Assembly: GCA_019753175.1 (NCBI GenBank)
Contig: JAIELK010000007.1
Span: 1-64,000 of the forward strand
From: Hyphomonadaceae bacterium
GTDB lineage: Bacteria; Pseudomonadota; Alphaproteobacteria; Caulobacterales; Aquidulcibacteraceae
DNA: 64,000 bases
Direction of reading: 5' to 3'
The translations under genes were made by a program, and so were the position numbers. Positions 18,823 through 20,301 of the stretch are shown here, one piece after another. The notes under the pieces were generated by a model. That model saw only the letters and a program-made list of their open reading frames with translations. It was not told the origin of the DNA and searched no databases. Numbering within the stretch: position 1 is the stretch's first letter; each line of letters begins with the position of its first letter.

Positions 18823-18884
18823 GGCTTGGCGCGGCGTGCCCCATGTCACAGCGGCCCTGAACCCCCGCGGCTAGTTTCTCTTCA

Positions 18885-18903
18885 TCGGATCACGGTGATC
18901 CGA
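18885..18903. repeat. Perfect 19-base inverted repeat upstream of the micropeptide pair
   Basis: TCGGATCAC and GTGATCCGA are exact reverse complements around a single G. The element ends 20 bases before the first micropeptide ATG and just before its ribosome site (AGGAG). It could be a repressor site or a hairpin at the 5' end of the message. It contains GGATCA and TGATCC three bases apart, as in the rpoE/FAD promoter region, but no matching -10 lies downstream. Confidence 0.5.
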
Positions 18904-18923
18904 CCCGAGCAGGAGCTAAACCA

Positions 18924-19016
18924 ATGTTGAAGTTCTACACCTTGATCGCCGCCTTGGCCGTGTTTGCCCCGGTCGCCTTCGCAACCTTGAACCAAGCCTC
19001 GCACATGTTTGCGTAA
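18924..19016 (+). CDS. Exported micropeptide 1 (30 residues)
   Basis: ATG 18924 is preceded by AGGAG nine bases upstream. The peptide starts MLKFYTLIAALAVFAPVAFA, a minimal secretion signal with an Ala-x-Ala site, and ends TLNQASHMFA. A second peptide 25 bases downstream shares the pattern LIAA..VFAPVA.AT..QAS, so this is a tandem duplicate under selection rather than a chance frame. The expected mature product is about ten residues, unless the segment stays as a membrane peptide. No named family is recognised. Confidence 0.7.
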   Translation: MLKFYTLIAALAVFAPVAFATLNQASHMFA

Positions 19017-19041
19017 GCGCCGACCAAAGAGGAGCACGCCA

Positions 19042-19131
19042 ATGACCAAGTTGTCTTGCCTGATCGCCGCTTGCTTCGTGTTCGCGCCCGTGGCGCTGGC
19101 CACGCTCGCGCAAGCCAGTCTCATCGTCTGA
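19042..19131 (+). CDS. Exported micropeptide 2 (29 residues), paralogue of micropeptide 1
   Basis: ATG 19042 follows GAGGAG by seven bases. The product MTKLSCLIAACFVFAPVALA plus TLAQASLIV aligns without gaps to micropeptide 1, with identity concentrated in LIAA, VFAPVA, AT and QAS. A UUCG-loop terminator follows 29 bases after the stop, so the two peptides form a self-contained transcript. Function is unknown. Confidence 0.7.
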   Translation: MTKLSCLIAACFVFAPVALATLAQASLIV

Positions 19132-19159
19132 AGGACGCCATGATTATCAAGGGACGCTA

Positions 19160-19187
19160 GGCGCCGGTTTCGACCGGCGCCATTTTC
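19160..19187 (+). terminator. Terminator of the micropeptide operon
   Basis: The 9-bp stem GGCGCCGGT / ACCGGCGCC with a TTCG tetraloop is followed by ATTTTC. This is a textbook intrinsic terminator. It separates the micropeptides from the radical SAM gene whose own promoter starts 16 bases later. Confidence 0.85.
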
Positions 19188-19202
19188 ATGCGCGCGATGT
19201 TC

Positions 19203-19231
19203 TTGAAATGTTCTCATGCCGACGCTATACT
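19203..19231 (+). promoter_or_regulatory. Sigma-70-type promoter giving a leaderless start at 19237
   Basis: TTGAAA (19203-19208), a 17-base spacer and TATACT (19226-19231) are followed by cagcc and then ATG at 19237. The predicted transcription start falls on or next to the A of the ATG. The alternative ATG at 19216 would lie inside the promoter, so 19237 is preferred. Confidence 0.65.
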
Positions 19232-19236
19232 CAGCC

Positions 19237-20301
19237 ATGTCCGTTGGTCCGCTGCACGGGCGCGGCGCGCGCAGCAATGCGGGCGGCCGCTACGAGCGCT
19301 TCGCGCGCGAAGCCTTCGACGACGGCTGGGCCGCCGGTGAGGTGACGCGGCTGGAAACCATCGTCACGCCGGAGGTGGCGAAGTCGATCATCTCCACCAA
19401 CGACAGCCCCGACATCTCGTTCGATCAGTCGATCAATCCCTATCGCGGCTGCGAGCACGGCTGCGTCTATTGCTACGCGCGCCCCAACCACGCCTATGTC
19501 GGCCTCTCGCCGGGGCTCGATTTCGAGACAAGATTGTTTGCGAAGACGAACGCAGCGGCGCTGCTCGAAGACGCGTTCGCGAAGCCGGGTTACACCCCGA
19601 AGACGATCATGCTGGGCGGCGTCACCGACATCTACCAGCCGACCGAGCGCAGCCACAAAATCACCCGCGCGCTGCTGGACGTGATGGAACGCTGGCGCCA
19701 TCCGGTTGCGCTGATCACCAAATCGCAGCTGATCCTGCGCGATATCGATATCCTCGCGCGCTTGGCCGAGCGCGGCCTAGCGAAAGCGGCGATCTCTGTG
19801 ACCACGCTCGACCGGCGCATCGCGCGGGTGATGGAGCCGCGCGCGGCCGCGCCGCACCGGCGCATCGAGGCGATCCGCGCGCTTGCGGATGCCGGCGTGC
19901 CGACGACAGTAATGGTCGCACCCATCGTGCCGGCGATCAACGACGCCGAGATCGAGGCTATACTCGAAGAGTGCGCCAAGGCCGGCGCCGGCGCCGCAGG
20001 CTATGTCGTGCTGAGGCTGCCGCACGAAATCAAGGATCTGTTCCGCGAATGGCTGCATGCACACTTTCCCGACCGCGCCGCGCGGGTGATGGCGCTGGTG
20101 CGTGCGATGCGCGGCGGGCGCGACTACGATCCACAGTGGAGCAAGCGGCAGAAGGGGACGGGCGTCTACGCCCAGTTGATCGCCGACCGGTTCGCGACGG
20201 CGTGCCGCCGCCTCAATCTAAACAAGCCGCGCCTGCCGCTTGACTGCACCCAGTTCCGCAACCCGAATTCCGCCCAAGGAGACCTCTTTGCCGCGTCTTG
20301 A
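19237..20301 (+). CDS. PA0069-family radical SAM protein
   Basis: From ATG 19237 the protein has 354 residues; a 7-codon longer form from 19216 is open but overlaps the promoter. The 4Fe-4S motif is NPYRGCEHGCVYCYARPNH (CxxxCxxC). SPL-like TIM-barrel motifs follow: GVTDIYQPTER, ALITKSQLILRD and VPTTVMVAPIVPAIND. This family (PA0069, Rv2578c) is related to spore photoproduct lyase; the reaction is not established. There is no Shine-Dalgarno, consistent with leaderless translation. Confidence 0.88.
   Translation: MSVGPLHGRGARSNAGGRYERFAREAFDDGWAAGEVTRLETIVTPEVAKSIISTNDSPDISFDQSINPYRGCEHGCVYCYARPNHAYVGLSPGLDFETRLFAKTNAAALLEDAFAKPGYTPKTIMLGGVTDIYQPTERSHKITRALLDVMERWRHPVALITKSQLILRDIDILARLAERGLAKAAISVTTLDRRIARVMEPRAAAPHRRIEAIRALADAGVPTTVMVAPIVPAINDAEIEAILEECAKAGAGAAGYVVLRLPHEIKDLFREWLHAHFPDRAARVMALVRAMRGGRDYDPQWSKRQKGTGVYAQLIADRFATACRRLNLNKPRLPLDCTQFRNPNSAQGDLFAAS

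Follow-up and report, generated by a model that had tools for sequence, protein, structure and literature searches.

A dispersed, lineage-specific family of micropeptide genes with CRP-type promoters and probably uncleaved membrane products

The VcdRP system of Vibrio cholerae combines a 29-aa peptide, VcdP, which binds citrate synthase, with the base-pairing RNA VcdR, and is repressed by CRP (PMC8672173). A further dual-function RNA repressed by CRP, AzuCR of Escherichia coli, is named in the same publication (PMC8672173). Other short genes of a comparable layout are the Cuckoo/CcsR RNAs with the DUF1127 protein CcaF1 (CIN1 locus, PMC10253847; Rfam RF02791) and the type I toxins Ibs, Ldr and Fst, short hydrophobic peptides of which some are multicopy or arranged in tandem (PMC8309996). 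In the 64,000 nucleotides of DNA analyzed here (the window), a short transcription unit for two micropeptides was studied (Table 1) that resembles each of these systems in part. With VcdRP it shares a peptide of approximately 29-30 aa, a short RNA putatively controlled by CRP and a C-rich candidate pairing element, while it differs by up to 24 copies per genome, hetero-pairs of genes, an activator-type promoter geometry and a predicted membrane helix; no homology is claimed. A short RNA under apparent CRP control that encodes a tiny peptide is also reminiscent of AzuCR, whose peptide is very small, but AzuCR is repressed by CRP and we know of no sequence relation between the two. As in the Cuckoo/CcsR loci, an alphaproteobacterial small ORF is followed by stem-loops with C/U-rich motifs; the micropeptide, however, does not belong to DUF1127 and the promoter is of the CRP type instead of being RpoH-dependent. 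By analogy, the unit may work most like VcdRP, while in layout it is reminiscent of the CcaF1-CcsR locus, membership of either system not being shown by the tests made.

A sequence-only reading of the locus had described two frames of 30 and 29 codons, each with its own ribosome site, followed by a terminator with a TTCG loop, and had regarded them as tandem paralogous micropeptides under selection. The frames lie exactly where that reading had placed them, both Shine-Dalgarno sites and the terminator are present, and selection on many copies was corroborated by the data given below. By contrast, it had overlooked the CRP-type promoter (18836-18877), the hairpin at the 5′-end of the RNA, a six-codon ORF ahead of the terminator and the dispersed multicopy nature of the genes. 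DNA of the window locus recurred in relatives with E values down to 2e-46, and the recurrence of its ORFs is far beyond chance. For ORF1, profile and DNA matches were obtained throughout the own genus, with a dN/dS ratio of 0.23.

Table 1. Features of the micropeptide unit in the window (TSS, transcription start site; SD, Shine-Dalgarno)
Feature	Position	Strand	Remarks
CRP-type palindrome GTGCCCCATGTCAC	18836-18849	+	consensus GTGAC-N4-GTCAC; centre at -41.5 relative to predicted TSS
-10 hexamer TAGTTT	18872-18877	+	exactly 22 nt past the palindrome; predicted TSS 18884
5′-terminal RNA hairpin ATCGGATCACGGTGATCCGA	18884-18903	+	conserved hairpin in most of 111 distinct 5′UTRs
SD of ORF1, GGAGC	18912-18916	+	GGAGC precedes 117 of 140 first ORFs
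Micropeptide 1 (ORF1), 30 aa	18924-19016	+	MLKFYTLIAALAVFAPVAFATLNQASHMFA; first-position type (AFA before TLNQ)
SD of ORF2, AGGAGC	19030-19035	+	read from the sequence
Micropeptide 2 (ORF2), 29 aa, partner paralogue	19042-19131	+	MTKLSCLIAACFVFAPVALATLAQASLIV; matches family profile
Six-codon ORF MIIKGR-stop	19140-19160	+	own SD AGGA (19132-19135); stop abuts terminator stem
Intrinsic terminator, TTCG loop	19160-19181	+	GCTCCC-loop variants in other units

Judged from the sequences, the unit in the window belongs to a lineage-specific family dispersed over the genomes of its carriers. The genome from which the window originates contains approximately 14-16 copies, mostly in tandem pairs (DNA and profile searches), and up to 24 copies per genome were detected by the profile search within the same genus, so that a lack of conservation in relatives, named beforehand as an outcome that would refute the reading, is clearly contradicted. 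In a DNA search of 41 genomes, 25 had matches, most of them several. The collected set comprises 204 distinct ORFs in 140 units with 62 tandem pairs (139 units and 63 tandem units in some counts). Exactly 30 aa were found in 171 of the 204 peptides; among these 171, lysine or arginine occupies position 3 in 99%, acidic residues are absent throughout and the net charge is +1 in 168. The maximal hydropathy over 19 residues exceeds 1.6 in 99% of the peptides, and the C-terminal QAAxIVA is conserved. Family copies showed dN/dS ratios of 0.22-0.27, from which it can be inferred that the micropeptides are constrained as proteins and are almost certainly translated. First-position ORFs were most closely related to the first ORF of another unit (42 of 44) and second ORFs to a second one (52 of 58); hence, the two ORFs form a conserved hetero-pair. 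At codon 24, glutamine is encoded by CAA in approximately 94% of cases while the codons of Q27 are mixed, which points to a possible additional constraint on the nucleotides CCAAGCC. Two units of the own genome (L022 and L023; G000:C1 and C6) encode the same peptides and have near-identical intergenic DNA despite a different CRP site and terminator. This suggests gene conversion, which is likely among the family copies.

When 299 genomes of the order were searched with a broad profile, the family was detected in 36, and all of these carriers belong to five genera of one family. Pfam and NCBIfam did not contain any family matching the micropeptides, the candidate PF20023 gave no match, relatives were not found in phages and plasmids, and no description was met with in the literature searched. 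The gene family is apparently undescribed. Micropeptides of this size are easily overlooked by annotation, and here a whole putative regulon of them, with approximately 16 genes in the genome of the window and as many as 24 in related genomes, matches no known family. The position of the window unit, ahead of a radical-SAM gene and in most cases beside an SDR gene, is occupied by a unit at 15 other loci as well, indicating that the window locus was inherited in place. A mobile element as the main explanation was rejected because of this syntenic locus and the varied flanking genes, several of which are housekeeping-like (FolB according to Pfam, others as judged by inspection).

The palindrome of the window unit is one base off the core GTGAC-N4-GTCAC, a CRP-type palindrome (TGTGA-N6-TCACA) which was detected in 119 of 139 units. 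In nearly all of these 119 units a hexamer of the type TA(C/G)(C/G)TT follows at exactly +22. Due to this fixed position of the putative -10 element, the palindrome is centred at -41.5 from the predicted TSS, in place of a -35 element. A site centred at -41.5 is the geometry of class II activators. The remaining 20 units lack the palindrome, and another motif is common to many of them. A search with the promoter pattern yielded one to 16 sites in nearly all carrier genomes and about none in non-carriers; the reversed pattern, used as control, gave near zero sites. Downstream of the sites mostly a micropeptide of 29-35 aa is encoded, sister genera included, and this also holds true for genus g19 though the first profile had detected almost none there. 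Since different small exported proteins are encoded behind some of the sites, the regulon is not restricted to the micropeptides. Apart from this, two loci (L175, G000:C26, and L291) encode members of a second family under the same promoter type, with peptides of 43-44 aa (..LPIxLAxLGFQAL). The promoter pattern was also seen ahead of proteins of about 154 aa that are apparently exported (CRIHYEALP..AAMECEHA) and of a protein with 95 aa (L294, L295, L301; L289, L309), for neither of which Pfam provided a family. Moreover, a second promoter-like motif, GCATCC-N15-GGCATCTC with the spacing taken by eye, is located ahead of divergent members (L084, L192, L202, L207, L235), some of which sit in clusters of several units.

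A single dedicated regulator of the CRP type apparently activates the family. The candidates are orthologues of G000:C6:151-837, a protein with a cNMP-binding domain and a Crp helix-turn-helix. Of the Crp-family members in the own genome, one combines a cNMP-binding domain with a recognition helix of the form R-E-x-x-x-R (ASREKVNR), and this helix is identical in most orthologues. Orthologues were identified in 33 of 36 carriers versus two of 24 non-carriers (p = 4e-11 in Fisher's test without phylogenetic correction), and this co-occurrence may largely stem from shared ancestry. Those of the two non-carriers showed 52% identity; two weak matches of 31% in g18 were left out of the count, and g24 contains the regulator while no micropeptide was detected. 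At nine of 20 crp loci read, a fraction biased by the partial choice of loci for a linkage already visible, crp is followed on the same strand by a micropeptide promoter at a distance of 150-2401 nt. One further locus (L322) has such a promoter upstream of crp. In the own genome, crp is located at a contig end. It directly follows an apparent ccrM gene there (L329, G000:C6:1-3000; by inspection), and such a gene also precedes crp in several relatives. The fixed promoter geometry together with a linked and co-occurring crp gene makes this unannotated network testable through one regulator.

The observations are probably best explained by a dispersed family of CRP-regulated membrane micropeptides with a dedicated regulator and products that remain uncleaved single helices. 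The regulator would bind to GTGAC-N4-GTCAC at -41.5 and activate class II promoters that give rise to short mRNAs. These are each predicted to carry a 5′-terminal hairpin and one micropeptide gene or a hetero-pair, in some cases also the six-codon ORF. The micropeptides of about 30 residues, with a basic residue near the N-terminus, a proline-bearing hydrophobic helix and the QAAxIVA end, would insert into the inner membrane and modulate a target there, and C-rich 3′ loops (GCUCCC) may base-pair with GGAGC Shine-Dalgarno sites as a second function. A tentative extension goes further and assumes that one CRP-type regulator drives a concertedly evolving hetero-pair family whose joint output is peptide, hexapeptide and trans-acting RNA, which would be a new kind of network.

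As to the fate of the peptides, the sequence-only reading had interpreted them as bare signal peptides with a remainder of 9-10 residues, and had named signalling peptides, membrane micropeptides and toxins as options. Within the own genus the first part of this interpretation fits: P16, A18 (98%) and A, S or G at position 20 (92%), with a bulky residue at 19, form a pattern P16-x-A18-x-A20 resembling a signal peptidase site. Cleavage by signal peptidase I after A20 would release a peptide of 9-10 residues (TLNQAAQIVA) with a periplasmic or signalling role, and the C-terminal decapeptide is strongly conserved. Family-wide, however, the interpretation fails. In the sister genera, all 16 of 16 peptides compared carry P20 and lack P16, the AxA site being lost, yet the length of 30 residues, K/R3 and AA25-26 are retained. 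AxA is also missing in some divergent members of the own genome, and N-terminally extended versions occur. AlphaFold2 predicted one continuous helix comprising residues 2-29 (pLDDT 91.6). Due to the P20 of the sister genera and this single helix, an uncleaved membrane helix is moderately favoured, while cleavage and release appear unlikely; positive evidence for a signalling peptide was not found. Most likely, the products are CRP-activated, uncleaved inner-membrane micropeptides.

It is conceivable that the units act mainly at the RNA level, either as dual-function genes or with GCUCCC loops working in trans on Shine-Dalgarno sites and the peptides being secondary. The 5′ hairpin is in line with this idea, as its stems change their bases but keep the pairing in most of 111 distinct 5′UTRs, and so is the synonymous constraint at Q24. 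Any terminator would be expected to show covariation in its stem; what is unusual here is the conserved loop. A loop of the GCTCCC type was present in 40 distinct terminators with unlike stems. It was less frequent among the remaining hairpin-plus-T sites at these loci, and several of the background cases listed resemble a degenerate unit or the reverse complement of a unit terminator. In addition, CTCCC immediately follows the stop codon in 31 of 63 tandem units. These data suggest a second, base-pairing function of the loops on GGAGC sites. That this function should be the principal one is nevertheless quite improbable, considering that the loop is absent from the window unit and many others and that selection on the peptides is strong. 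At the units, no Rfam family reached the threshold; in the Rfam search, only the tRNA attained its gathering score. The CcsR1 model (RF02791) scored 22.2 bits on one copy, compared to a gathering score of 65.3. Weak Rfam matches were judged to be chance GC-rich hairpins.

A role as type I toxins, i.e., small hydrophobic membrane-damaging peptides under antisense-RNA control, would agree with the size, hydrophobicity and multicopy or tandem layout known from Ibs, Ldr and Fst (PMC8309996), but is highly doubtful given that positive evidence was not found, that the window locus showed no promoter-like site in antisense direction, that no conserved block for an antisense gene was noticed in the unit flanks inspected, that phage or plasmid relatives were not found, that a sequestration of the Shine-Dalgarno site by the 3′ loop, considered and discarded, was inconsistent across units, and that an activator-type promoter, long-term synteny, a charge of +1 without acidic residues and the QAAxIVA end set the micropeptides apart.

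A short frame consisting of ATG, five codons and a stop codon at the terminator stem was detected in 25 of 119 units including the window unit, counts that are non-independent because the radical-SAM locus contributes many of these 25 as orthologues. Shuffling gave a mean of 0.3 and a maximum of three such frames, and every other length between three and 12 codons occurred at this position not more than once. All three types of stop codons are used. Few candidate conserved ORFs are as short as this six-codon ORF, which would lend itself to the study of minimal translation units close to terminators. Beyond the terminator of the window unit, the sequence GTTC-N7-GTTC (19199-19213), which corresponds in form to the alphaproteobacterial LexA box, overlaps a promoter-like site ahead of the radical-SAM gene (19216-20301).
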